Source of the DNA: Methylophilaceae bacterium
GTDB lineage: Bacteria > Pseudomonadota > Gammaproteobacteria > Burkholderiales > Methylophilaceae
DNA length: 64,000 nt
NCBI GenBank assembly: GCA_028823485.1
Contig: JAPKBG010000004.1
Location: forward strand, 1 to 64,000
Direction: 5' to 3'
Below the pieces are notes generated by a model. That model saw only the letters and a list, made by a program, of their open reading frames with translations, did not search any database and was not told the DNA's origin. Position 1 is the first letter of the stretch. Each line of letters begins with the position of its first letter. Positions 5,423-48,532 of this stretch are shown piece by piece. The position numbers were made by a program, and so were the translations under genes.

Positions 5423-6322
5423 TTGCAGTTCCGACGCACGAAAAGAAAAATTGATGGTATTTTATTGCTAGATAAGCCACTCGGCTATTCTTCCAACCAA
5501 GCATTACAAAAAATAAAATGGCTATTCCAAGCCACCAAAGCTGGCCATACTGGCACCTTAGATCCACTTGCGACAGGTTTGCTTCCGATTTGCTTGGGTG
5601 AAGCAACTAAGTTTGCGCAACATGTGACCGATGCCGGCAAAACCTATATTGCTAACATCAAGTTTGGTGTTCAAACCAGGACTGGCGATGCTGAAGGTGA
5701 AGTTGTTTCAACTAAGCCTGTCAATATAACCAAATCTGAGCTAGAGCAAGCTTGTCAGAAATTCTTGGGTGAAGTTAGCCAAGTGCCACCGATGTATTCT
5801 GCGTTAAAACATAAGGGCAAGCCTTTGTATGAGTATGCGAGAGCTGGCATTGAAATTGAACGTCCAGCAAGGCAAGTCACTATTACAAAAATCGCGGTAG
5901 ATTCGTTTATAAATGATGAAGCTATTATTACTGTTAGCTGCAGCAAAGGTACTTATATCCGCACGTTAGCAGAAGATATCGCCAATACCCTGGATAATCA
6001 CGCACATTTAATTGGTTTGCGACGAATTGAAACGGCTGGTTATGATATTGCTGATGCGATGACAATCGAAGCCGTTGAAGAGCTAGCAATGGAGTTACGC
6101 GATGCACAACTGCTGCCAGTAGACACGGCGATTAGTGTATTACCGAAAATTACGATCAGTGCTGACGCGGCTTTTTACTTTAAGCAAGGGCAGGCTTTTT
6201 GGGAAGCTGGCAGTATTCCAGATGGTGAGTTGCGCGTGTATGCCGAAGATGGTGTTTTTCTTGGCTTAGGAAAATTAATGGAAGACGGAAAAATCACCGC
6301 AAAGCGATTAGTCCATTTGTAA
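5423..6322 (+). CDS. truB: tRNA pseudouridine(55) synthase TruB
   Basis: TruB makes pseudouridine 55 in the T loop of tRNAs. The catalytic aspartate is in GTLDPLATGLLP, and the KxxGYSSNQAL and GTYIRTLAEDI segments match the family. The 299 residues include the C-terminal PUA-like part. The ORF begins with TTG at 5423, four bases after the rbfA stop, and I see no in-frame ATG that would keep the conserved N-terminus, so TTG is the likely start. It closes the rimP-truB operon; the next gene is about 150 bases away and unrelated. Confidence 0.95.
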   Translation: MQFRRTKRKIDGILLLDKPLGYSSNQALQKIKWLFQATKAGHTGTLDPLATGLLPICLGEATKFAQHVTDAGKTYIANIKFGVQTRTGDAEGEVVSTKPVNITKSELEQACQKFLGEVSQVPPMYSALKHKGKPLYEYARAGIEIERPARQVTITKIAVDSFINDEAIITVSCSKGTYIRTLAEDIANTLDNHAHLIGLRRIETAGYDIADAMTIEAVEELAMELRDAQLLPVDTAISVLPKITISADAAFYFKQGQAFWEAGSIPDGELRVYAEDGVFLGLGKLMEDGKITAKRLVHL

Positions 6323-6474
6323 CAGTACGACAAAACGCTCACACAGCCCTTTTAAAGCTTTAAAATTCTTGCGCTTTTACGATAACGCGCTACCCTGACA
6401 GTTAGTGTTTTGTCATTTATCTACCACACACAAGGGTAGTCGGCATTGCCTATTTCTATAAGTGAGGGTAACCC

Positions 6475-7137
6475 ATGACAACGCCAATCCGCGTCAAGTA
6501 TCAAACCATCGAAATCGGTAGCATCGATATTCATTTGTGTACATTACGAGATAAGCAACAATATAGTGATCCAGACGATATTGCAAAAAATCTCGGTATC
6601 AATGATACCTTGTGGCCACTATTTGGTGTGGTATGGCCTTCTAGCTTAGTGCTCGCACATTATATGAATGACTATGCAACGGATGGTAAGCGAATACTAG
6701 AAATTGGTTGTGGTATGGCATTAACCAGTTTAATGCTCAACAAGCAACACGCTGACATCACAGCAACCGATCATCACCCAGAGGTTGGCGACTTCTTGAA
6801 ACGCAACTCTGAGCTTAATCATGATGCGGATATTCAATACGAACGTGCTGATTGGTCAGAAGATACTGATTCTTTAGGTCGGTTTGATCTGATTATTGGT
6901 AGTGATATTTTGTATGAAGATGAACATATTCAGCAATTAGCCAATTTTGTTGAACAACATAGCCTGCCTAATTGTGAGGTGGTCTTAGTTGACCCAGGAA
7001 GAGGCAGAAAAAATAAACTAGGCTTGCAGATGGAAAAACACGGCTATCAAAGTGAGCAAATAAAACCAATAAATACCGATTACTTAGAAATGCCATTTAA
7101 AGGCTTTGTATTGAAATACTGGCGAACTGCTAAGTAA
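6475..7137 (+). CDS. Class I SAM-dependent methyltransferase (lysine methyltransferase-like)
   Basis: A 220-residue Rossmann-fold methyltransferase. SAM-binding motif I is ILEIGCGMALTSL near residues 75-87, the acidic motif II follows in the TATDHHPEV region, and DLIIGSDILYED matches the post-motif segment of the Methyltransf_16 group (METTL21/ETF-beta lysine methyltransferase-like). Substrate is unknown; protein lysine methylation is a guess from the family. It starts at an ATG after GTGAGGGTAACCC. It stands alone between truB and the rpsO promoter, and the 150-base gap before it holds no clear element. Confidence 0.8.
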   Translation: MTTPIRVKYQTIEIGSIDIHLCTLRDKQQYSDPDDIAKNLGINDTLWPLFGVVWPSSLVLAHYMNDYATDGKRILEIGCGMALTSLMLNKQHADITATDHHPEVGDFLKRNSELNHDADIQYERADWSEDTDSLGRFDLIIGSDILYEDEHIQQLANFVEQHSLPNCEVVLVDPGRGRKNKLGLQMEKHGYQSEQIKPINTDYLEMPFKGFVLKYWRTAK

Positions 7138-7201
7138 AAGGTGAAAAGAATCACAAAAAACGATAAATTGACTTAAAAACAGAAGCTTAAGCCCGAAAAG
7201 T

Positions 7202-7230
7202 TTGGTGTTTTGTGAGTTTATGTCTATAAT
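7202..7230 (+). promoter_or_regulatory. Sigma-70 promoter of rpsO
   Basis: TTGGTG at 7202-7207 and a perfect TATAAT at 7225-7230 are separated by 17 bases, a near-consensus promoter. It leaves a leader of about 95 bases before rpsO. In other proteobacteria this leader folds into a pseudoknot bound by S15; here complementary GTTAG/CTAAC segments occur in the leader, but I cannot fold it reliably. Confidence 0.7.
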
Positions 7231-7332
7231 GCTCGTCTCATGTGATTAAGCATGTAAATTGAATGCAAGCGCAGGTTAGGTAAATAGGTTACTTCGCTAT
7301 GTTTGTATTGACGCTAACTTAAGGATATAAAG

Positions 7333-7602
7333 ATGGCAGTTACAGCGCAAGACTCAGCAAAAATTATTAAAGAATATCAACGTGCCCCAAATGATACGGC
7401 TAGCCCAGAAGTGCAAGTGGCATTGTTAACAAACCGTATTACTTACTTAACAGAGCATTTTAAAGCAAACAAAAAAGACAATCACTCACGTCGTGGTTTG
7501 TTGGCTATGGTTAGCCAGCGACGTAAGTTATTAGATTATCTTAAAGGTAGAGACGCAAGCCGTTATCAAGCATTAATTAGTAAACTAGGCTTACGTAAAT
7601 AA
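7333..7602 (+). CDS. rpsO: 30S ribosomal protein S15
   Basis: S15 binds 16S rRNA and is an early assembly protein. The 89-residue length is exactly the family norm, and the segments [35 protein letters not shown] and [12 protein letters not shown] are diagnostic. AAGGATATAAAG precedes the ATG. A strong promoter lies about 100 bases upstream and a strong terminator downstream, followed by pnp. That rpsO-pnp arrangement is widespread, with pnp partly fed by read-through. Confidence 0.98.
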
Positions 7603-7640
7603 TTTCTGTAAATGCGTTATTCGCCTTTATAGATGTGTAG

Positions 7641-7677
7641 AAAGTCGATTGCATTTAACGATGCGTCGGCTTTTTTT
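7641..7677 (+). terminator. Rho-independent terminator after rpsO
   Basis: A stem of about 13 bp (AAAGTCGATTGCAT against ATGCGTCGGCTTT, with one G-U pair and one bulged base) runs into seven Ts. It lies between rpsO and pnp and should reduce transcription into pnp. Confidence 0.85.
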
Positions 7678-7730
7678 ATTGTTTGATTGCTATTGGGTAG
7701 TGAATAGCAATCTATTGAAAAGGAAAACAA

Positions 7731-9836
7731 ATGTTTAATAAAGTAACGAAAAGTATTCAATATGGCGATCACACGCTAACGCTAGAAACTGGTGAGATTG
7801 CTCGCCAAGCTGATGCGACCGTGATGGTGAGCTATGGTGATACAGTTGTAATGGTTGCGGTTACTAGCCGTAGCGAAGTTAAAGCGGGTCAAGATTTCTT
7901 CCCTTTAACTGTTGATTACATGGAAAAAACATACGCTGCAGGTAAGATTCCTGGTAGCTTCTTTAAGCGTGAAGGCCGACCTTCAGAAAAAGAAACACTG
8001 ACATCACGTTTAATCGATCGTCCGTTACGTCCACTGTTCCCAGAGTCGTTTTACAATGAAGTGCAAGTGGTGGCAACAGTGATATCGTCAGATCCTGAAA
8101 TTGATTCAGATATTCCTGCGATTATTGGTGCTTCTGCTGCGATGTCATTATCTGGCATTCCATTCTTTGGCCCGTTAGGTGCTGCGCGTGTTGGTTATAT
8201 TGATGGCGAGTACATCCTTAACCCAAGTAAAACACAAATGGAAACAACTGACCTAGATTTGGTTGTTGCAGCAACTGAAACAGCTGTCATGATGGTTGAG
8301 TCTGAGGCGAAAGAGCTTTCAGAAGCAGTAATGTTGGGTGCAGTAACATTCGGTCATGAAGCAATGCAACCAGTCATTAAAATGATTAATGAATTAGCTG
8401 CTGAAGCAGGTAAGGACGCATGGGATTGGAAAGCACTTGAGCCAGATGCTGCGTTAATCGAAAAAGTAAAAAACCTAATCGGTGCAGATGTTGATGCTGC
8501 TTTCAAAATTAAAGAAAAAGGCGAGCGTTCAGCGAAGTTAAGCGAAATCAAAAAACGTTTAACAGATGCGCTCATTACTGAAGAAACTTCAACAGAAGAA
8601 GCCAATAAAATTAAAGGTGAGTTCTTTAACTTAGAAGCACAGACAGTGCGTAGCCAAATTTTGAATGGTGATCCACGTATTGATGGCCGTGATACACGTA
8701 CAGTGAGGCCTATTAGCATTCGTACGGGTGTATTGCCACGTACCCATGGTTCTGCCTTGTTTACGCGTGGTGAGACGCAGGCATTGGTTGTAGCAACATT
8801 AGGTACTGGCCGCGATGAGCAAAAAGTTGACGCCTTGCAAGGTGAGTTTACTGACAACTTTATGTTGCATTACAACTTCCCTCCATACGCAACTGGTGAA
8901 ACCGGTCGCGTTGGCACACCTAAGCGTCGTGAAATTGGTCATGGCCGTTTAGCTAAACGTGCATTGATTGCTGCATTGCCTCCTAAAGAAGACTTTGATT
9001 ACACAATGCGTGTGGTTTCAGAGATTACTGAATCAAATGGTTCTAGCTCTATGGCCTCTGTTTGTGGTGGTACTTTAGCATTGATGGATGCTGGCGTACC
9101 AATGAAAGCACCAGTAGCAGGTATTGCAATGGGCTTAATTAAAGATGGTAACCGCGTTGCTGTGTTGACTGATATTTTGGGTGATGAAGATCACTTAGGC
9201 GATATGGATTTTAAAGTAGCTGGTTCATTAAATGGTATTACTGCTTTGCAAATGGATATTAAAATCACCGGTATTACAGCACAAATTATGGAGGCTGCTT
9301 TAGCACAAGCCAAAGAAGGTCGTCAGCATATCTTAGCCATCATGCAAGAAGCGCTAGAGGCTGCTGACACTGAGATGTCTGAATTTGCACCACGTATTAT
9401 CAGTGTAAAAATAAACCCTGATAAAATCCGTGACGTGATTGGTAAAGGCGGTGCTGTGATTCAAGCATTGACTAAAGAAACCAATACTAATATCGACATC
9501 GATGAAGACGGTACTGTGAAAATTGCATGTACGAGCGCTGAAGAAGGTGAAGAAGCGAAACGGCGTATTGAAGAGATTACTGCTGATGTTGAAGTAGGTC
9601 AAATCTACGAAGGCCCAGTTGTTAAAGTATTAGACTTCGGTGCTGTAGTTTCATTGATCCCAGGTAAAGATGGCTTGGTTCATATTTCACAAATCGCACA
9701 TCAACGTGTGAATGCAGTCAGCGACTTCGTTAAAGAAGGCGACACTGTTAAAGTGAAAGTAGTTGAGATCGACGGTAAAGGCAAAGTGCGCTTAAGCATG
9801 AAAGCTTTGATCGAAGAGCCTGCTAAAGACGCTTAG
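7731..9836 (+). CDS. pnp: Polyribonucleotide nucleotidyltransferase (PNPase)
   Basis: PNPase is a phosphorolytic 3'-to-5' exoribonuclease and degradosome component. The 701 residues carry two RNase PH domains (the first about 1-210, the second about 310-540), an intervening helical domain, a KH domain with [10 protein letters not shown] near residue 570, and an S1 domain with [19 protein letters not shown] near 640-670. The GRRE-type basic residues of the second core appear in [15 protein letters not shown]. The ATG follows AAAGGAAAAC. It is followed by a strong terminator. Confidence 0.98.
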
Positions 9837-25653: not shown

Positions 25654-25851
25654 GCGCGCATTATAGGTTTAAATGGTACAAACTTAAACAACACTTAAAA
25701 CTGTCACTATTTATGTTTGTGTACAATAGGCATCGTTAGCACAGTGAATAAGGTAGTAAGTGTGTGAGAACACATGGATGAGCCGTCGTTGACCTAGTGT
25801 GACTCTGCCGATATAGATTAGGCGTGCTAACCCTTTTGGCCATTAAACTGG

Positions 25852-34430: not shown

Positions 34431-36671
34431 CTAACGGATACCTTTGACACGCTTAATCAACTTCTTTATACCTTTTCGGCCGATGGTGCGTTTTAGCTTT
34501 ACTTTCCCATCATATAGACAAAACCTAAGCTTAATGGGAAGGTTAAATTGTCGTCCACTTAGCGCTAAATACATTTGCATAAAGCGTTGGCGTCCTTCGC
34601 CATGTAATTTATGGCAAGCGCGGGTTAAGTCGGCGATTCTCAGCTTGAATGGGATGGCATGGTTGAAATTGTGAATGCGAGCCGTATCAATCAAAGAAAA
34701 TTCAAGCACATTATTTGCGTGAATATTGATCAAAATATTACCGCCAGAGTAGTCTCTGAAGTAAATGCCGCGTTTATGCATATTGTGAGAAAACTGTGCG
34801 AACTGTCGATAAACCTCTTTAGCTGTCAGCCCTTTATAAGTTGAATGACCTCGAGTAAAAGCAGAAAATAGTTCACCAATCGTACAGTCAGCTGCCACAC
34901 GCTCACAAATATAAAAGTTTTGCTTTAAGGATCTGTCGCCCATTTTTTCAAAGTAAGCAACTGGTTGTGCTGTACCTACACCGCGTCGTAGTAGCTCCAT
35001 CGCCCCATTCCAACTACGTTTTGCTTTGCTCGGCTTGAAGCGATCTAAAAAGGCTTTGTGCGGGTACATTTTGACAGGCTGTTTAATCGTGAGCTGAGCT
35101 GTTGTATCTCTTGGATCTGGCATCGCCCAAATGACATTTCTTGCGTGTCGCAATGATTCGTCTTTTTGTGGAGCTATCAAAGTTTCAGGGTTAAGTGTGA
35201 GCATTAGTTGATTAGCCTCAGCTTCATCTTTGGCTAATACCAGACCTGACCAACCATTTTGATTAAATCTAAAATATTCTGCATTTTCAACATGCGCATG
35301 AATCGCCAGGTTTTTTGCTAGGGCAGGTGTTGGCAATAGTTCGATGTTCCAGTCTTTATCCCAACATATATAAATAGGTGCTTCACACACTAGCTCAGTA
35401 TTTTTCTCTAACATGGCACCATCACGATTGGTTATTTTGGCATTATTGAGTGTGTTTTCTGTGTATATATCAGAAAGGTAAGCGACTTTTCCGTTAATTG
35501 TCCAGGCGACATGTATTTGCCACTGCTGATTGTTAAAGTGATGTACTTCTAGTCCCACTGCACTGAAAACTGCCTTAATGTACTGTGCGTTGCTTAAGTG
35601 GTTGAGCAAAGATTGCATGGCATAAAAGCTTGGATAGCGCTGATATTCATGTAGTACACCATCAGCTGATTGATAGTGTGCGACACGTTCTAGCGCGGGA
35701 TATTCTGCATCTGTTAGGCCGTCGTCAATAAGGCCTCCTCGGTTGCAGATAAGAGCGCCCCAATTGGCTTGGTGTAAAGCGCCAGACGCAGCTAATAAGG
35801 CGAAGTAGCGTGTTAAGTAATCCGCTTGTTTCTGTTTACCATTGGCTAATATACGCTCTATACGGTAGATGGCCCAAAATGCAGTAGAAGAGCTGGTTTG
35901 GTTGACACCGAAATCTAGTCCAATTTTTTGTAAGATGCGCGCTTTTTTGACAAGATTATATTTAAGTAATGTTGACCATTTGTACTTGAGTATTCTGTAA
36001 TCAAAGCGCTCTGGCTCACTGACTCTTTCAACAAAAAGGTTATCAGTCTGTGTGTCTGGCAACAAACCATCAGGTGCTAATATCTTGAAAATGCCAATGT
36101 TATAAATCGGTTCAAAGTCTTGTATGTTTGGACCAAGTAACTTAATGCCACGAGACTTTACTTCTTCATGCGCAATTCTCCATGCAATCAGGAAGCTGTG
36201 TAAGGTATAACCAGCCCAACGTTTACGGTTGATGGTGTTGCCAATTTCAACTTGTACGACTTCCGCACCATAACGGTTGAGTGTTGTTGCTAAAAAGGAG
36301 CGCCAATCAGCTTGTTCAGCTGTGCCGCCCATATGTGCAGCTATATGCGCAGGCGGGAATAGATGTAAAGTGACGTTAAATCCTTTTGTAATGAGCGTTT
36401 GTAAAAAGCGCGCATTGAAGTTGTCAACATCATTGTAAGTAAAGTCGATCCGGACATTATTGATACCAAGTGTTTCTAGTTGCCTAATAATGTAGTGATC
36501 TACTTCAATATTTTCATTAGAAGCAACGCATACTCCAAAAAAATCTTCAGATAGCGTATGGTTTTGTGTGGGTAGGTGCCCGTTTTTAATACGTAAGCCA
36601 CCGCTTAAGATGTACTTTAGGCTGTTGGTTGCCAGTTGTTTAGCGGATGTAGAATAGAGTTGTTTGTTCAT
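34431..36671 (-). CDS. Two-domain protein: glycosidase-like TIM barrel plus LPS-kinase (Kdo/WaaP) domain
   Basis: A 746-residue protein. Residues about 40-330 look like a TIM-barrel glycoside hydrolase: FFGVCVASNE, GINNVRIDFTYNDVDNF, FNVTLHLFPP and VEIGNTINRKRWAGYT (usual catalytic acid motif is (E)NE; here GNT, so the Glu seems missing). The C-terminal 200 residues are a Kdo/heptose-type kinase: catalytic loop HKRGIYFRDYSGGNIL near residue 632 and metal-binding SLIDTARI near 660. Joining these is unusual. A role in modifying surface polysaccharide or LPS core is inferred. No signal peptide is evident. It is a single gene. Confidence 0.75.
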   Translation of the reverse strand: MNKQLYSTSAKQLATNSLKYILSGGLRIKNGHLPTQNHTLSEDFFGVCVASNENIEVDHYIIRQLETLGINNVRIDFTYNDVDNFNARFLQTLITKGFNVTLHLFPPAHIAAHMGGTAEQADWRSFLATTLNRYGAEVVQVEIGNTINRKRWAGYTLHSFLIAWRIAHEEVKSRGIKLLGPNIQDFEPIYNIGIFKILAPDGLLPDTQTDNLFVERVSEPERFDYRILKYKWSTLLKYNLVKKARILQKIGLDFGVNQTSSSTAFWAIYRIERILANGKQKQADYLTRYFALLAASGALHQANWGALICNRGGLIDDGLTDAEYPALERVAHYQSADGVLHEYQRYPSFYAMQSLLNHLSNAQYIKAVFSAVGLEVHHFNNQQWQIHVAWTINGKVAYLSDIYTENTLNNAKITNRDGAMLEKNTELVCEAPIYICWDKDWNIELLPTPALAKNLAIHAHVENAEYFRFNQNGWSGLVLAKDEAEANQLMLTLNPETLIAPQKDESLRHARNVIWAMPDPRDTTAQLTIKQPVKMYPHKAFLDRFKPSKAKRSWNGAMELLRRGVGTAQPVAYFEKMGDRSLKQNFYICERVAADCTIGELFSAFTRGHSTYKGLTAKEVYRQFAQFSHNMHKRGIYFRDYSGGNILINIHANNVLEFSLIDTARIHNFNHAIPFKLRIADLTRACHKLHGEGRQRFMQMYLALSGRQFNLPIKLRFCLYDGKVKLKRTIGRKGIKKLIKRVKGIR

Positions 36672-38890: not shown

Positions 38891-40657
38891 CTACTCAATA
38901 AAATTTAGCTTACTATAACCGAGTAAAGTACCTGTCGCATAGGCGGTATCCACTAATGCAACTTGGTAATCTCCGATGGCTTTAATCTCTTTAATTTGCG
39001 CCTCACCTAGTCTGGTCAGTGTTTCCAATACCTCGGTCATTGTTCTAAGCCCCTCATTAAATTGTTTTAACTCCGCCTCGTAATTAATGCCAGCAATTAA
39101 CACCTGCTGTCTTGCCGCTAAAATACGTTGCCAGTTTTGTTCTACTTGATCTACCGCATCATATATCTCTCTTTTAACGGTTAATGTTTGTAATGTTTTT
39201 GTGGTGAGTCGTTGGCCTCGTTGTTGTACTGCACGTGCCAATTTTGCTTTGTTCGCCTCATTGCTGATAGGTAATTCAAACTTAAAACCAACAGACCAGT
39301 CGTTAAAGTCACCATCTAATACATGTTGATAGCTATCGCCTAAATTATTAAATGTATTGGATAAAGTGCCATATTGATAATCGATACTGAATAAAGGTAA
39401 AGTTTGATTTTCTAAATAATCAATCTTAGTAAGATCGGCAGCCAGTTTCAATTCTTGCGTTAATAATTCTATACGGCCTTCTTGTGCATCTTTTAATAGC
39501 TTTTGTCGATTAATATCGTACTTTACTAAATTAGGTGGTGTGCTTGGTAGATAAATAGCATCCAAAGAAGTGACATCTGCAATGTCGTTCATCAAGAACT
39601 GCAATTGACGATTAGCCAGTTTTAAACTGGTTTCTGCAACGATTAGAGCTTCTAATCGATCCGCAACGCCTATCTCAGAACGACTAATTTCTACACGTGC
39701 TGTTAAGCCCTCGGCGACTCTTATTTTAACCATTTGTAAATTTTGCTGTGCATATTCATACTGCTGTCTTCTGACATCTAATTGGCCCCATCTTTCGTAT
39801 AGTTTCCAGTACGCTTTATCAACCATCGCGATAATGCGAATAATTTGCAAACGGGTATTTAGGGTAGCCGCTTGTTGCTCATAACCAGCAATACGAATGC
39901 TGGCTTCAGTAACGTCTCGACCTGCATTTCTTAGCAGTGGCTGACTAATTGAAAATCGCAATGCACTTTGATACTGCTTGCTATCAAATTGACCACCGCG
40001 ACGAGAAGTTTTTTTATTCATTAGCGGCGTACTTAGCGTAACCGTGCCGCCCGTTCGTAAAGGCACCTTAATGCCAGTTTCTACATCAAAGCCTTTACTC
40101 TGTTGCGCTAATTGATCCAGCTTTACTGTTTGTTTATCTAAGGTTGGATTTGTGGACTTAAAGCCAACATAGTCACTAGACAGTTTTGGTGGGTCACTTT
40201 CTCTGTATTGAGCGTACACATAAAAAATCTGATCAAATTTTGCTTCTTCTATTTTTAACTCACTCGAAGCAATATCAGGATTAACTTTCACAACTTGAAT
40301 ATTTAAATTATTTTTTAAGGCCTTTACTCTTAAATCAGTCAGCGTGAATTGATATGCTTTATCACCGCTTTCTAAATCTAAAAGGTTTGAATCTTCAGGG
40401 TGGTCATAAGGTTGTAAGGCCTTTTTAATATCAATATTCAAGGTTGGGTTAGCTTGATGTTTGAGCGCTTTGTTTTCATCAATAGCTTGCTTAAGTGTTT
40501 TAGCAGGCTTGTCTGAGTATTGCTCTAATTGCAATGACTCATCTCGTTTTAAAAGATTGTCAAACACCAATGTTTCATCTGCGATAGATGGCATTGTTCC
40601 GATGCTGAATAGACACAACAGTACCTGAAAACTAAGTTGTTTTCTTGATGAGCGCAT
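38891..40657 (-). CDS. TolC family outer membrane efflux protein
   Basis: A 588-residue outer membrane channel subunit with a signal peptide (LCLFSIGTMPSIADE) and two TolC-type helical repeats (LRVKALKNNLNIQVVKV; later RGQRLTTKTLQTLTVKREIYDAVDQVEQ). It is longer than E. coli TolC because of an N-terminal extension of about 100 residues. It forms a tripartite exporter with the HlyD and ABC genes upstream; its ATG overlaps the hlyD stop by one base. A terminator follows. Confidence 0.88.
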   Translation of the reverse strand: MRSSRKQLSFQVLLCLFSIGTMPSIADETLVFDNLLKRDESLQLEQYSDKPAKTLKQAIDENKALKHQANPTLNIDIKKALQPYDHPEDSNLLDLESGDKAYQFTLTDLRVKALKNNLNIQVVKVNPDIASSELKIEEAKFDQIFYVYAQYRESDPPKLSSDYVGFKSTNPTLDKQTVKLDQLAQQSKGFDVETGIKVPLRTGGTVTLSTPLMNKKTSRRGGQFDSKQYQSALRFSISQPLLRNAGRDVTEASIRIAGYEQQAATLNTRLQIIRIIAMVDKAYWKLYERWGQLDVRRQQYEYAQQNLQMVKIRVAEGLTARVEISRSEIGVADRLEALIVAETSLKLANRQLQFLMNDIADVTSLDAIYLPSTPPNLVKYDINRQKLLKDAQEGRIELLTQELKLAADLTKIDYLENQTLPLFSIDYQYGTLSNTFNNLGDSYQHVLDGDFNDWSVGFKFELPISNEANKAKLARAVQQRGQRLTTKTLQTLTVKREIYDAVDQVEQNWQRILAARQQVLIAGINYEAELKQFNEGLRTMTEVLETLTRLGEAQIKEIKAIGDYQVALVDTAYATGTLLGYSKLNFIE

Positions 40658-41970
40658 TATTGACTAGCTTTAAATTTTTGCATGCTGCTTGGGGGTTGTT
40701 GCGGTAACCGAGCCGGAAAGCCATTGACTTGGCGCCACAACTCATAACCAATCGAGACTTTTTGTAAAAGTATCCAAGCACGAGCACTCACACCTTGTCG
40801 CAAGAGTCTAGATGATGGCCAGTCTCTACTGTCTGTTGCTGGGATGACCATCACTCTAAAACTTCCGGATCCATTATCAGTAGGGTCAACAAAGGCAACT
40901 TTACCTCTAAATGTACCGACACTTGCTTGCGGCCATCCAGACACTTGAATCGCTGGCCATCCTTCAAACTCCAATCTTGCTTCACTATCCTTAAGCAGTA
41001 GTGGTGCATCTCGCCCATCAACCCATAACTCTACAGCGCGTGAAACAGTATCAGGGACAATGATGAGCATCTGTTCACCTTGAGAAATCACCTGTGATTG
41101 TGAGTTAATTGGCAGTCGGTGAATCACACCATCTCTAGGCGCAACCACCCTCTGCATGTTTTGGCGTGAGAGGTTGATTTCAGAGCTAGTTAAACTATTT
41201 TCACTATCCGCAAGCTCACCTTTTATTTTACTAATCAATGCTTTACTAGAATCAAGTGAGGCTTGTGTTTCAGCTTTTATTTGTAAAATTTCAGCAGAAG
41301 CTGTTTTTGCCACTGCTTTTGCAGCGTTAAGATTAGCTTGAGCACTATTTAAGCTACGTTTAGCAAGAATAAAATCACGTTCAGCCACTTCAACATCGCG
41401 TTTAGAAACCAAGCCGTCTGTGAATAAGCGTTGTAGGCGATTGGCTTGAAACTCAGCCGTATCTAAAGTAGCTTGCGTTGCACTATAGGATTCTAACGAG
41501 GATAATATCGTTTGTTTAGCCACATCTAATTTGAATTGTGCAGCTGCTATTTTTGCATCTCTAGATGAAGTCAAATTTTCTTGTTGAATTTGATAGGCTT
41601 TTAACTCATCATTTTTTGCACCCAGTTTGGTTTGTTGGTTATTGCGTTGTGACGTTAATCGATCTATAAAAAGTGGATCAATATCACTAATTTCAAGCAA
41701 CACATCTCCTTTTTTAACCATTGAGCCTTCCTGTACATACCATTTGCTAATCACACCACTGACAGGCGCATCAATACTTTGGATGCGCTCAGAGGCGGAA
41801 AATGCGGTGACTTGACCGCTAGCAATAACATTTTGCCGCCATGGCAGAAACATCGCAAAAATGGGTAGTACAAAAAATACAATCACTAAAAACTGGGCAT
41901 AACGGCGAACGAACGCTGGCGTTTGCGCTACTGTTAAAGCTTGTCGATCCATACGCTTAGCTTCGTTCAT
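40657..41970 (-). CDS. HlyD family secretion adaptor (membrane fusion protein)
   Basis: A 437-residue periplasmic adaptor. A short cytoplasmic N-terminus is followed by one membrane helix (FLVIVFFVLPIFAMFLPW), a lipoyl half-motif (IDAPVSGVISKWYVQEGSMVKKGDVLLEI), a long coiled-coil hairpin (about residues 110-260), the second lipoyl half (RVVAPRDGVIHRL) and a beta-barrel. Start and stop overlap the neighbours (ATGA with the ABC gene, one base with tolC), so translation is coupled. It connects the ABC protein to the TolC-like channel. Confidence 0.9.
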   Translation of the reverse strand: MNEAKRMDRQALTVAQTPAFVRRYAQFLVIVFFVLPIFAMFLPWRQNVIASGQVTAFSASERIQSIDAPVSGVISKWYVQEGSMVKKGDVLLEISDIDPLFIDRLTSQRNNQQTKLGAKNDELKAYQIQQENLTSSRDAKIAAAQFKLDVAKQTILSSLESYSATQATLDTAEFQANRLQRLFTDGLVSKRDVEVAERDFILAKRSLNSAQANLNAAKAVAKTASAEILQIKAETQASLDSSKALISKIKGELADSENSLTSSEINLSRQNMQRVVAPRDGVIHRLPINSQSQVISQGEQMLIIVPDTVSRAVELWVDGRDAPLLLKDSEARLEFEGWPAIQVSGWPQASVGTFRGKVAFVDPTDNGSGSFRVMVIPATDSRDWPSSRLLRQGVSARAWILLQKVSIGYELWRQVNGFPARLPQQPPSSMQKFKASQ

Positions 41971-43628
41971 TTGTTGGCCTGTTCCATTAAGTCCACCAGT
42001 TTCAATTGATGATCAAATTGTTTAGCAATGTGGTCGGATCGTGTTGTCATTAGTAGCATCCAATCTTGTTTTCGTTCAATTAAATAATGAATCACAATCT
42101 CAATTTGTTGTGGATTTAAATTATCAATGATGCCGTCAATGATGAGTAAATCTGGCTTTGTGACTATTGCCCTGACTACCATTAGCCGTTGTAATTGCGT
42201 CGTTGATAACGGCGCACCAAAACTAGTTAGCTGAGTATTAAGACCATGTTCTAATTTAGAGAAATCATCGATTAATCCTAACGCCCCTAACACTGCATTG
42301 ATTTCATGCATAGATATGTTTGTGTTGTCGAGTAGTATATTCTCTAAAATAGTGCCTTCAAAGATTTCTACTTTAGTAGCAATCCCAATACAATTTCTCA
42401 ATGCCAAGCGATTGATTTGACGTAAGTCAACATTGTTATATTCGATTTGACCTTTATCAGGGGTTCTTAGGCCAGTCACTAAATCAATAATTGTTGACTT
42501 TCCAGTGCCGGAGATCCCCATAATGGCAAGGCTGCTGCCTTTGGATAGGGTGAAGTTAATATCTTTAATTGGATGTATACGATGAGAGTAGGCAAAGTTT
42601 AAAGCGGTTACGGATAGTGTACTCAATGCATCAAACGATGTTTGGTTATCTTTGATTTCTTCTTGAGGCAAATCATCTAAAACCCCAAGTTTATCGATCG
42701 CCGCTAAAATATCGTAATAGTCGCCGAACTTACTGACTAGTCGTACAAGAGCAGCTAGCACACTAAAAAATATTAATTCAGATGCAACAAACTGACCTAA
42801 GTTCATTTGACCATTAACGACTAAGATGCCACCAATGACCAGCATTGCGGTGCCAATAAAGGCATAAAACATGACCGCGCCAAAGGTTTGCCAAAGCAAA
42901 CAAGAGAAGTGGGAAGCTCGCTTGTTTAAGTACTTATCCGCTAGCTTGTTGGTGAATACTGTCGCACGGTATAAACCGTTGTAGAACTTGAATAGATAAA
43001 AGTTACCCGCTATCGTTTCTAGCCATGCAGCCATGGCATATTTTGCTTTTGACTCTTCAATCGCAGTTTGTGTCGCATTTTTGCCTAATACGCTGAGCGT
43101 AAACCAAAAGAATAGAAAGATTAGTGCAACGACAAGGGCAAAGTAAATACTATAAAAAATTAAAATGATGCTACCGATAACGACTTGAATAATCGCAATT
43201 AAACCAACAGTTAATAGTGTGGCGGCTGACTTTTGTATCGTGGCAATGTCAAAAAAACGATTTACTAATTCAACAGGGTTTGTTTTGTCGTAAATGTTAA
43301 TCATTGCACCTTGGACCTTATTGGTTACTTGCATAGCAGTTTCAACAAATAATCGGCGTTGAATATACTCAACGACATAAGCTTCTAATACATATAAAAA
43401 GCCAGATAATACCAATAATGCAAACAAGATAATTGAAATGACGACGAGTGGCTCGATGACACCACCCATGGTGACATTGTTGACGAGCGCTTGGACGGCA
43501 ACAGGCGTTGCAATGCTGAGAAGGCCGTAACCTAATGTTAAATACAATAATAAAAGAATATCATCACGCTCACTATGGATTAGCTTAGTGAGTCTTACTA
43601 ATGGAGAGGAATTTTTATCATTTTTCAT
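41967..43628 (-). CDS. ABC transporter permease/ATPase with degenerate catalytic motifs
   Basis: A fused membrane and nucleotide-binding protein like type I secretion ABC proteins, but with no peptidase domain. Six membrane helices precede the NBD. Walker A is intact (GISGTGKST). The signature LSGGQ is STTQL, Walker B is LLIIDG (Gly in place of the catalytic Glu), and the switch region reads LLMTTRSDH without the usual histidine. It may bind but hardly hydrolyse ATP. The track start at 43721 overlaps a terminator; ATG at 43628 is likelier. The gene is first of an overlapping ABC-HlyD-TolC operon. Confidence 0.85.
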   Translation of the reverse strand: MKNDKNSSPLVRLTKLIHSERDDILLLLYLTLGYGLLSIATPVAVQALVNNVTMGGVIEPLVVISIILFALLVLSGFLYVLEAYVVEYIQRRLFVETAMQVTNKVQGAMINIYDKTNPVELVNRFFDIATIQKSAATLLTVGLIAIIQVVIGSIILIFYSIYFALVVALIFLFFWFTLSVLGKNATQTAIEESKAKYAMAAWLETIAGNFYLFKFYNGLYRATVFTNKLADKYLNKRASHFSCLLWQTFGAVMFYAFIGTAMLVIGGILVVNGQMNLGQFVASELIFFSVLAALVRLVSKFGDYYDILAAIDKLGVLDDLPQEEIKDNQTSFDALSTLSVTALNFAYSHRIHPIKDINFTLSKGSSLAIMGISGTGKSTIIDLVTGLRTPDKGQIEYNNVDLRQINRLALRNCIGIATKVEIFEGTILENILLDNTNISMHEINAVLGALGLIDDFSKLEHGLNTQLTSFGAPLSTTQLQRLMVVRAIVTKPDLLIIDGIIDNLNPQQIEIVIHYLIERKQDWMLLMTTRSDHIAKQFDHQLKLVDLMEQANK

Positions 43629-43710
43629 AATTTGACATTCTACTAACTTTTGAACTATTTGGCGGTATATATCTGATTTAATTAAACATTTATTAGGGGT
43701 AGATATAAAG

Positions 43711-43731
43711 ACGGCCCGCAAAGCGAGCCGT
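43711..43731 (-). terminator. Probable amtB terminator
   Basis: ACGGCTCGC and GCGGGCCGT pair on the minus strand around a TTT loop, about 30 bases after the amtB stop. The T tract is weak (CTTTATAT), so efficiency is uncertain. Confidence 0.5.
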
Positions 43732-43760
43732 TTTAAATGAAGTGTTACTTAACTAACGCA

Positions 43761-45218
43761 TTAGTTAACGTATGCACGTTCACCGTGGTAAGCCGTATCA
43801 AGACCTTCACGCTCTTCATCTTCTGAAACGCGTAGACCGATCATGATATCAACCAGTTTGTATGCGATGAATGCAACCACACCAGACCATACAATGGTGA
43901 TTAATATACCTTCACCTTGAATCATGACTTGTTCAGCGATACTAGTGTCCATGCCGATGCCGCCTAAGCTAGCATCAGTAAACACACCTGTTAGTAAAGC
44001 ACCAACAATACCGCCAACACCGTGAACACCAAATACGTCTAGTGAGTCATCAGCACCAAGCATTTTCTTAAGGCCAGTAACACCCCATAAGCATAATGCA
44101 CCACCAGCTAAACCGATGATGATAGCGCCCATAGGACCAACTGAACCACAGGCAGGTGTAATGGCAACTAAACCAGCAACCGCACCAGATGCAGCACCAA
44201 GCATAGATGCCTTACCACGAGTGAGTGCTTCAACTGATGTCCATGCTAATACTGCAGCAGCAGTAGCTAATAGTGTGTTGATGAATGCTAAGCCAGCACC
44301 ACCAGTTGCTTCTAAGTTAGAACCAGCGTTGAAACCGAACCAGCCAACCCATAGTAATGACGCACCAACCATTGTCATTGTTAATGAGTGTGGTGTGAAT
44401 GCTTCTTTGCCGTAGCCGATACGTTTGCCAACCATGTAAGCACCAACTAAACCTGCAACAGCAGCGTTGATATGCACAACAGTACCACCGGCAAAGTCTA
44501 ATGCACCAGCGTCTAATAGATAGCCACCTGTACCCCAAACCATATGCGCGATAGGGATGTAACTGAATGTGAACCAGATTAATGAGAACAACAACACAGC
44601 GCTGAATTTCATACGCTCTGCAAATGAACCCACAATCAGTGCACAAGTAATACCAGCAAATGTACATTGGAAAGCGATGAAAATCATTTCTGGAATCATC
44701 ACGCCATCAGTAAATGTTGCTGCTAACGAATCCATTGTTACGCCTGATAAGAACAACTTACCAAGGTCACCAACGATTAAGCCTTCACCACTACCGAATG
44801 CCAAGCTATAGCCATAAACTGCCCAAGCCACTGAAATCAGTGAGAAGACAACCAATACTTGCATCAAGATAGAAAGCATATTTTTACTGCGCACTAGGCC
44901 GCCGTAGAACAATGCTAAGCCAGGTACTGTCATCAAAATAACCAGTAGCGTAGCTACCATCATCCAAGCAGTATCGCCTTTGTCTACTGTTGGTGCAGCA
45001 GCTTCTTCTGTAACCGCTTCAACTGGAGCGGCTTCTTCAATAGCAGCTACTTCGATGACTTCAGCTGGCGCTTCGATCGCTGCATCAACTGTTTCTACTA
45101 CTTCTGTCATTACATCAGCAGCTTCAGCGACACCTTCTTCAGCATAGCTAATACTGCTTGTTAATGCACCTGTACCCATTAAGGCAACAAGTGATAATAT
45201 TGATAATAATTTTTTCAT
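43761..45218 (-). CDS. amtB: Ammonium transporter AmtB
   Basis: A 485-residue ammonium channel with an N-terminal signal and acidic alanine-rich spacer (residues 25-75), then 11 membrane helices. DFAGGTVVHINAAVAGLVGA is the Amt signature, and DSLDVFGVHGVGGIVGALLTG carries the second pore histidine. It sits 11 bases after glnK and the pair is conserved because GlnK docks onto AmtB to close the pore. The whole cluster is downstream of a sigma-54 promoter, so it should be induced by nitrogen limitation through NtrC. Confidence 0.97.
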   Translation of the reverse strand: MKKLLSILSLVALMGTGALTSSISYAEEGVAEAADVMTEVVETVDAAIEAPAEVIEVAAIEEAAPVEAVTEEAAAPTVDKGDTAWMMVATLLVILMTVPGLALFYGGLVRSKNMLSILMQVLVVFSLISVAWAVYGYSLAFGSGEGLIVGDLGKLFLSGVTMDSLAATFTDGVMIPEMIFIAFQCTFAGITCALIVGSFAERMKFSAVLLFSLIWFTFSYIPIAHMVWGTGGYLLDAGALDFAGGTVVHINAAVAGLVGAYMVGKRIGYGKEAFTPHSLTMTMVGASLLWVGWFGFNAGSNLEATGGAGLAFINTLLATAAAVLAWTSVEALTRGKASMLGAASGAVAGLVAITPACGSVGPMGAIIIGLAGGALCLWGVTGLKKMLGADDSLDVFGVHGVGGIVGALLTGVFTDASLGGIGMDTSIAEQVMIQGEGILITIVWSGVVAFIAYKLVDIMIGLRVSEDEEREGLDTAYHGERAYVN

Positions 45219-47043: not shown

Positions 47044-48532
47044 ATAAATCTAGCTGTTTTATATAGCCGTGCCTTAAGTGGTATGGACGCACCTGAGGTC
47101 GTTGTCGAGGTGCATTTAGCCAATGGGCTGCCCTCTTTTACTATTGTTGGCTTACCTGAAGCCGAGGTCAAAGAAAGCAAAGACCGTGTCCGTGCCGCTA
47201 TTTAAACTTCCCTGTTTGATTTTCCTGCCAGACAGATTACCGTTAATTTAGCCCCTGCTGATTTACCCAAAGAAAGCGGCCGTTACGATTTGCCAATTGC
47301 GTTAGGTATTTTGGCGGCTAGCGGGCAAATTTCAACAGAAGCGTTGGCGAAGTATGAGATTGCTGGTTAACTTGCTCTGACAGGTGAGTTGCGGCCGGTA
47401 CGCGGCACTTTAGCGATGACCTATCATATGACAACAGCCACGCCCTTTATATTACCCCAACAAAGTGCAGAAGAGGCCGGCTTGGTTAACGATGCGATTG
47501 TTTATCCAGCTAAAAGCTTATTAGTTGTTTGTGCGCATTCGAACGGCCATACACTATTAACACCTTTTCAAAGTAATGCCACACCACAACCAATCGCGTA
47601 TCCAGACTTCAACGAAGTAAAAGGGCAAAGCCAAGCCAAGAGAGCATTAGAAATTGCGGCAGCAGGTGTACACAGTATCCTGATCAGCAGGCCGCCTGGT
47701 AGAGGAAAAAGCATGCTGGCTTCACGGGTTGTTGGCATCTTGCCTGCCATGGCTGAGACCAAAGCATTGGAAAGTGCAGCGATATAATCATTGAATGGTA
47801 GCTATAAACTAAGTGATTGGAAGCGTAGAAATTTCCGGAGCCCACACAACGCTGCATCAGGTGTGGCTTTGGTCGGTGGAGGCAGTGTGCCACGTCCCGG
47901 TGAAATCTCACTTGCGCATCATGGTGTTTTATTTCTGGATGAGTTGCCAGAATTTGATCGCAAAGTATTAGAGGTGTTACGAGAGCCATTAGAAAGTGGG
48001 CATATAACGATTTCTCGCGCGGCACGACAGGCTGACTTTCCTGCCAAGTTTCAATTAATTACTGGGATGAGCCCATGTCCCTGCGGCTATTTTGGACACT
48101 TTAATAATAAGTGTCGTTGCACGCCAGATCAAATTGCACGATATAAAGCCAAAATTTCTGGGCCGTTGTTAGACCGTATTGATATGCATATTCAGGTGCC
48201 TGCCTTAAAAGAGGATGAGTTGACGGCAGCAGCCGTTTCTGAAGATAGCGCAGCAATACGTAAACGTGTAGAGCAAGCAAGAGCTAGATAGCTTAAGCGT
48301 CAAAACAAAGCCAACTTTGCACTCGGAACTAGGGAGATTGAAATGGTTTGTCAGCCAGATGAAGCAGGGCTGGCATTATTAAAAACAGCGATTACACGCT
48401 TAAACTTATCAGCAAGAGCCTATCACCGTATTCTGAAGTTGGCACGTACGATTGCGGATGTGGGCGGGTGATGTGGATATTCAAGCTACCCATATTGCCG
48501 AAGCGGTTCAGTATCGGCGAGTAGACAGTTAA
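47044..48532 (+). pseudogene. comM: ComM (YifB) Mg chelatase-like ATPase, heavily decayed
   Basis: ComM is a branch-migration helicase in natural transformation. All parts are recognisable from [28 protein letters not shown] to the C-terminal IADV...IAEAVQYRRVDS, but the gene is broken many times. The start is ATA (47044). Stops are TAA at 47203, 47368 and 47785 and TAG at 48289. One extra G near 48461 shifts the end. The Walker A motif is RPPGRGKS instead of GPPGxGKT. Removal of these changes gives an otherwise collinear protein of about 495 codons. It is downstream of ubiK and upstream of metH. Confidence 0.93.

Follow-up and report, generated by a model that had tools for sequence, protein, structure and literature searches.

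The 64,000-nt stretch of Methylophilaceae DNA analysed here (the window) belongs to a genome of 1.64 Mb, whose close relatives are also Methylophilaceae. At positions 38891–43628, ORF calling finds three overlapping minus-strand genes in the order ABC–HlyD–TolC. The first encodes a pseudo-ATPase ABC exporter subunit (41967..43628, minus strand), 553 aa long from its ATG and assigned by Pfam, motif alignment, an AlphaFold2 model and a PDB fold match; it comprises a transmembrane domain (TMD, approximately residues 1–320) and a degenerate nucleotide-binding domain (NBD, approximately residues 336–545), with Pfam matches to PF00664 (ABC_membrane) and PF00005 (ABC_tran). A 4-nt overlap joins it to the gene for an HlyD-type periplasmic adaptor (40657..41970, minus strand; 437 aa; Pfam HlyD_3 and lipoyl domains), the orthologue of which immediately follows the ABC gene in almost all related loci. 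This gene overlaps in turn by 1 nt with that for a TolC-type outer-membrane factor (38891..40657, minus strand; 588 aa, N-terminally extended; Pfam OEP), which follows HlyD in the conserved cassette. ORF coordinates and Pfam matches confirm the first-pass annotation of the three overlapping genes as one operon, and the presence of both an HlyD-type adaptor and a TolC-type outer-membrane factor is that of a type 1 secretion operon. N-terminal extension of the TolC ORF is common to the Methylophilaceae, where most have 585–625 aa versus approximately 470–540 aa elsewhere in the family.

A terminator-like GC hairpin is located at approximately 43640–43740 on the minus strand, between an ammonium-transporter-like gene (43761–45218) and the ABC gene, and an alternative TTG start of the latter at 43721 would read through it. 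Because the hairpin separates the two genes, the ABC operon is probably served by a promoter of its own, with the ATG at 43628 rather than this TTG as its start. Elsewhere in the window, the minus strand at 34431–36671 encodes a protein of 746 aa whose C-terminal domain is WaaP/Kdo-kinase-like and whose N-terminal part received no domain assignment, and a Methylophilales-1 sRNA (Rfam RF03011) is found above the gathering score at 25734–25832 on the plus strand. At approximately 47060–48440, immediately ahead of a 1269-aa ORF, the plus strand bears a gene of the Mg chelatase family that resembles YifB/ComM (identity assigned by eye from the translation). Several stops interrupt its frame and its Walker A is modified (SRPPGRGKS), giving it the appearance of a pseudogene in this genome.

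The AlphaFold2 model of the ABC protein (pLDDT 93, from an alignment without five rows that stem from plasmid records) has a normal six-helix TMD fused to an NBD fold, i.e., the type IV ABC exporter fold (ABCB/HlyB-like), and its closest PDB folds are the PCAT1 core and HlyB (TM-score approximately 0.9, E approximately 1e-28). A misread frame is rejected, as the fold is confident and the NBD well formed; for the same reason, the motif changes described below are taken as substitutions in a well-formed domain. The nearest NCBIfam models are those of NHLM/HlyB/LssB exporters, none of which was passed at its curated cut-off (HlyB, 149 bits vs. 726; LssB, 131 vs. 693; PrtD, 123 vs. 510). Among Pfam-type models only ABC_membrane, ABC_tran and P-loop models matched, with no match to the SbmA_BacA family, and no curated NCBIfam model describes the exporter family to which the protein belongs.

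Catalytic motifs in the ABC subunit and its homologues

ABC exporters are defined by ATP hydrolysis. When motifs are assigned by alignment with canonical exporters, all that remains of them in the window protein is Walker A, the Asp of Walker B, and the Ser and Gln of the signature. Walker A (GISGTGKST, residues 371–379; 42492..42518, minus strand) is intact. In the signature, LSTTQ replaces LSGGQ (LSTTQL, residues 474–479; 42192..42209, minus strand), the Walker B motif LLIIDG (residues 494–499; 42132..42149, minus strand) has Gly instead of the catalytic Glu, and the switch position of the H-loop (TTR) is occupied by Arg530 instead of His (42039..42041, minus strand). The alignment thus bears out what had been read from the sequence at first pass, namely the intact Walker A, STTQL for LSGGQ, LLIIDG without the Walker B Glu, and the absent switch histidine. 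A further defect, additional to those listed at that stage, lies in the Q-loop (GIATKVEIF, residues 415–423; 42360..42386, minus strand), where the Gln is gone by a one-residue deletion.

Homologues were sought in about 1,100 genomes in total, with a profile built from both phyla for the cross-phylum search; few candidates per genome were scored, so that all carrier counts are lower bounds. The family is carried by at least 39 of 187 Methylophilaceae genomes (in 8 of 24 genera; matches near E 1e-50, judged canonical by score, are left out of this count) and, in the profile search, by at least 11 of 274 from the class to which the window belongs and by at least 76 of 297 sampled genomes of Bacteroidota, the phylum of a Winogradskyella MAG (72 full-length and 4 TMD-only). 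Among the loci read, all those scoring at least 267 bits are degenerate and all those at or below 207 bits are canonical, with intact motifs. Searches of plasmids returned members in Novosphingobium, Sphingobium, Riemerella, Persicobacter, and Aureibacter, mostly with generic or missing annotation. The cassette order ABC–HlyD–TolC is common to the annotated Novosphingobium and Riemerella records and to most of the other loci; in three loci (L182, L183, and L185) no TolC profile match was found within the stretch examined, and in L185 no HlyD match either.

The nearest homologues, 72–73% identical to the window protein, display the same pattern of losses, as do other Methylophilaceae orthologues. 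Of nine catalytic residues, 0–5 remain in the window protein and in the 88 full-length members (median 2; a single exception keeps 7), versus 8–9 in 38 canonical exporters. No intact ATPase was found among the 88: the Walker A Lys is retained in 68, the catalytic Glu in 11, the switch His in 3, the Q-loop Gln in 2, and the first signature Gly in none. As the losses recur throughout the family while the canonical exporters keep 8–9 of 9 residues, they are far beyond chance. Their distribution differs between lineages. Lys377 of Walker A is kept in 29 of 30 Methylophilaceae rows and in 37 of 37 from Bacteroidota, yet in only 2 of 21 from other Pseudomonadota, where one clade is devoid of Walker A as well. 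The catalytic Glu position is Gly in 26 of the 30 Methylophilaceae rows, and the Walker B motif of Bacteroidota often reads ED instead of DE.

The least degenerate member, L174 (genome G660; approximately 6274–8046, minus strand), is the one with 7 of 9 residues. It has Walker A, LSTGQ, DE, His, and the TM6 Glu discussed below, its sole losses being the Gln of the Q-loop and one Gly of the signature; it is a candidate transitional form and may still be a weak ATPase.

In a tree based on the TMD only, the family is split from canonical exporters with an SH-aLRT of 100, the Methylophilaceae members constitute one clade (99), and the proteins without an NBD constitute another (97), nested in Bacteroidota; the rows of the canonical exporters are long, and their inner order is unreliable. 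As judged from these sequences, the family is old and monophyletic.

Selection, conserved TMD residues, and members without an NBD

Between closely related Methylophilaceae pairs, dN/dS amounts to 0.035–0.067 in the NBD and 0.023–0.053 in the TMD. The low value for the NBD argues that it is still selected as a domain. The first-pass annotation had proposed a conserved pseudo-ATPase exporter, to be abandoned in favor of simple decay should homologues in other species have canonical motifs. The alignment of homologues upholds the proposal: the substitutions recur family-wide, each of the 88 full-length homologues shows some degeneration, and strong purifying selection acts on the NBD. Simple decay is rejected for the family by dN/dS, the breadth of its distribution, and the open frames.

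The pattern of conservation in the sequences indicates that constraint has shifted to the TMD. When proteins are compared in pairs, the NBD exceeds the TMD in conservation in 2% of cases within the family, as opposed to 90% among canonical exporters. Of 45 alignment columns that reach at least 85% conservation, 39 fall in the TMD part, up to and including residue 323. One such residue is Glu284 (LGQFVASELIFF; 42777..42779, minus strand), placed in TM6 by alignment and by the helix boundaries of the AlphaFold2 model. The position is Glu in 92 of 93 family rows, including four members without an NBD, and Asp in the remaining one; in 38 canonical exporters it is Asn, Gln, Thr, Ile, Met, Tyr, Phe, Ser, or Val, with an acid in none. 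A profile search of the PDB gave printed alignments with P-glycoprotein only. Since L174 also has the Glu, the acid seems to predate the loss of the ATPase, as suggested by this single sequence on a long branch. By analogy with the transporters considered below, Glu284 is proposed as a candidate ion-coupling residue.

In four Bacteroidota genomes (L166–L169), the protein has 334–349 aa and stops at the boundary between TMD and NBD. HlyD begins immediately after it, leaving no space for an overlooked NBD, and the genes still constitute a TMD–HlyD–TolC operon. All four proteins retain N123, R124, D127, Q132, K133, Q148, S193, K196, H240, and E284. The AlphaFold2 model of L167 (pLDDT 92) folds as a TMD but is devoid of a helix where the window protein has coupling helix 2. 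In all four, changes affect the FK core of this helix. Coupling helix 2 is the usual docking site of the NBD.

Possible mechanism and its alternatives

In type 1 secretion, the protein substrate is often encoded nearby. When gene neighbors were clustered at 25 loci, only the three cassette genes recurred generally; neither a conserved substrate or accessory gene nor a conserved adjacent ABC gene was found among them. The involvement of a second NBD, raised at first pass, was further considered in one operon carrier (G057), a single contig of 1.3 Mb that is 99% complete. Besides the operon protein, it encodes two ABC exporters, of 582 and 616 aa, and the same number is encoded by two genomes without the operon (two each in G035 and in G048, which is of the same genus as G057). 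There are 13 NBDs in G057 and 13 in each of three operon-less sisters; every G057 NBD has a counterpart in G048 by reciprocal best hit, and none is specific to the operon relative to that genome. As the same 13 NBDs occur in the operon-less sister, the comparison makes a dedicated trans NBD in G057 unlikely. The operon copy in G057 is itself also without Walker A.

These results bear on the possibility that the protein is the degenerate partner in a heterodimer of the kind seen in TM287/288, TmrAB, and TAP, the other partner being an intact ABC half-transporter or an individual NBD from another locus. Heterodimers in which a single site is degenerate have ample precedent (PMC8277102), Walker A is retained in two clades of the family, and one of the two other exporters of G057, or a shared housekeeping half-transporter such as MsbA, may be a conceivable partner. 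Nevertheless, a heterodimer appears rather unlikely: a cognate intact partner was rejected for want of either a conserved gene in the compared neighborhoods or an operon-specific NBD in G057, and the earlier suggestion fits poorly with NBD-less members whose coupling helix 2 is degraded. The chances are slightly lower still that residual hydrolysis by a slow or unconventional ATPase, with the lost residues replaced by others, powers transport. Presence of Walker A, the ED found for DE at Walker B in many Bacteroidota, and the seven residues of L174 would agree with such activity; on the other hand, the signature is altered in all members, the Q-loop Gln and the His are gone in nearly all, and members devoid of Walker A or of the whole NBD have their operon and TMD residues in common with the others. 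Taken together, the sequences make ATP hydrolysis by family members improbable.

The regulated channel mentioned in the first-pass annotation would be a nucleotide-gated conduit, in which ATP at Walker A opens a TMD pore and the substrate exits down its own gradient through HlyD–TolC. It accounts for the 68 of 88 members in which the Walker A Lys persists in the absence of the catalytic residues, and there is a parallel in LmrA, the ion current of which is started by ATP binding and not by hydrolysis (PMC6155054). However, the clade without Walker A and the NBD-less members would need a second mechanism, and both the strictly kept TM6 acid and the inverted conservation of the TMD better match a transporter; ion-coupled transport is therefore ranked above this conduit, which is considered unlikely, though worth keeping in mind. 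That the gene is a pseudogene or a relaxed remnant in the course of being lost would be suggested by the graded loss of motifs, from L174 to absence of the NBD, but is hardly credible given the low dN/dS of the NBD, the open frames found in many genera of two phyla, TMD residues that hardly vary, and a retained three-gene order.

The preferred reading, with chances that are about even, is that the protein would be a homodimeric exporter with an ABC fold but without ATP hydrolysis, probably driven by ion-motive force and feeding HlyD–TolC. This ion-coupled homodimer is proposed by analogy. LmrA-MD and MsbA-MD, from which the NBD was removed artificially, use proton gradients for transport, and the TM6 Glu E314 is required in LmrA (PMC2704374, PMC6155054, PMC4979069); SbmA-type transporters are ABC-derived and proton-driven, have lost the NBD and the coupling helices, and use a protonatable Glu (PMC13316013). 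In the window protein, ion-motive force might drive the switch of access, the putative key coupling step being the protonation of the TM6 residue Glu284, and the substrate would be passed to the HlyD–TolC conduit, the presumed direction being export. In members bearing Walker A, including the window protein, the NBD probably binds nucleotide and might serve as a dimerization or gating module without turnover, nucleotide binding being an optional regulator. As Walker A is retained almost throughout, this binding probably still matters in Methylophilaceae and Bacteroidota.

For the family as a whole, it is somewhat less probable, at a little below even chances, that these are natural and widespread ABC-derived tripartite exporters which switched from ATP to ion-motive force. 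The stages would then lead from L174 through NBDs with only Walker A and motif-less NBDs to NBD-free proteins, with the same kind of HlyD–TolC conduit and one fixed TM6 Glu. If true, the family would parallel the engineered LmrA and MsbA truncations and SbmA as an independent case that arose in nature, and the preserved intermediates make the switch from primary to secondary transporter testable residue by residue. Considering that the family occurs in about a quarter of the sampled Bacteroidota, the label "ABC transporter ATP-binding protein" has probably been given to many proteins that are not ATPases.

Relation to known transport systems

A search of the literature found no description of the family, which does not prove its absence elsewhere, and existing records annotate its members generically. 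The family is a derivative of ABC exporters with a known type of conduit and known functional precedents.

HlyB/PCAT-type exporters resemble it in fold, in gene order with HlyD and TolC, and as the nearest NCBIfam models, whereas the window protein contains no C39 or C39-like domain and scores far below the curated cut-offs; the catalytic loss, the TM6 Glu, and the deletion of the NBD in some members also set the family apart. A degenerate NBD with a kept Walker A is shared with TM287/288 and TmrAB; in the present case, however, no partner was found, and both halves of the putative homodimer would be degenerate. The SbmA/BacA proteins (SLiPT) are likewise characterized by an ABC-derived TMD thought to be ATP-independent, a conserved membrane Glu, and loss of the NBD and coupling helix 2, the latter as in the NBD-less members (PMC13316013). 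They differ in lineage, the present family matching Pfam ABC_membrane and residing in an exporter-type operon with HlyD and TolC. Moreover, SbmA needs a ladder of several Glu residues, while the present family has one clear Glu in TM6 and NBD-bearing intermediates that are still extant. LmrA-MD and MsbA-MD demonstrate that a TMD alone can couple to a proton gradient, and LmrA relies on a Glu in TM6, the parallel between E284 and E314 being their location in this helix. Both are laboratory truncations of working ATPases, whereas the loss of the NBD in the present family is natural, old, and conserved.
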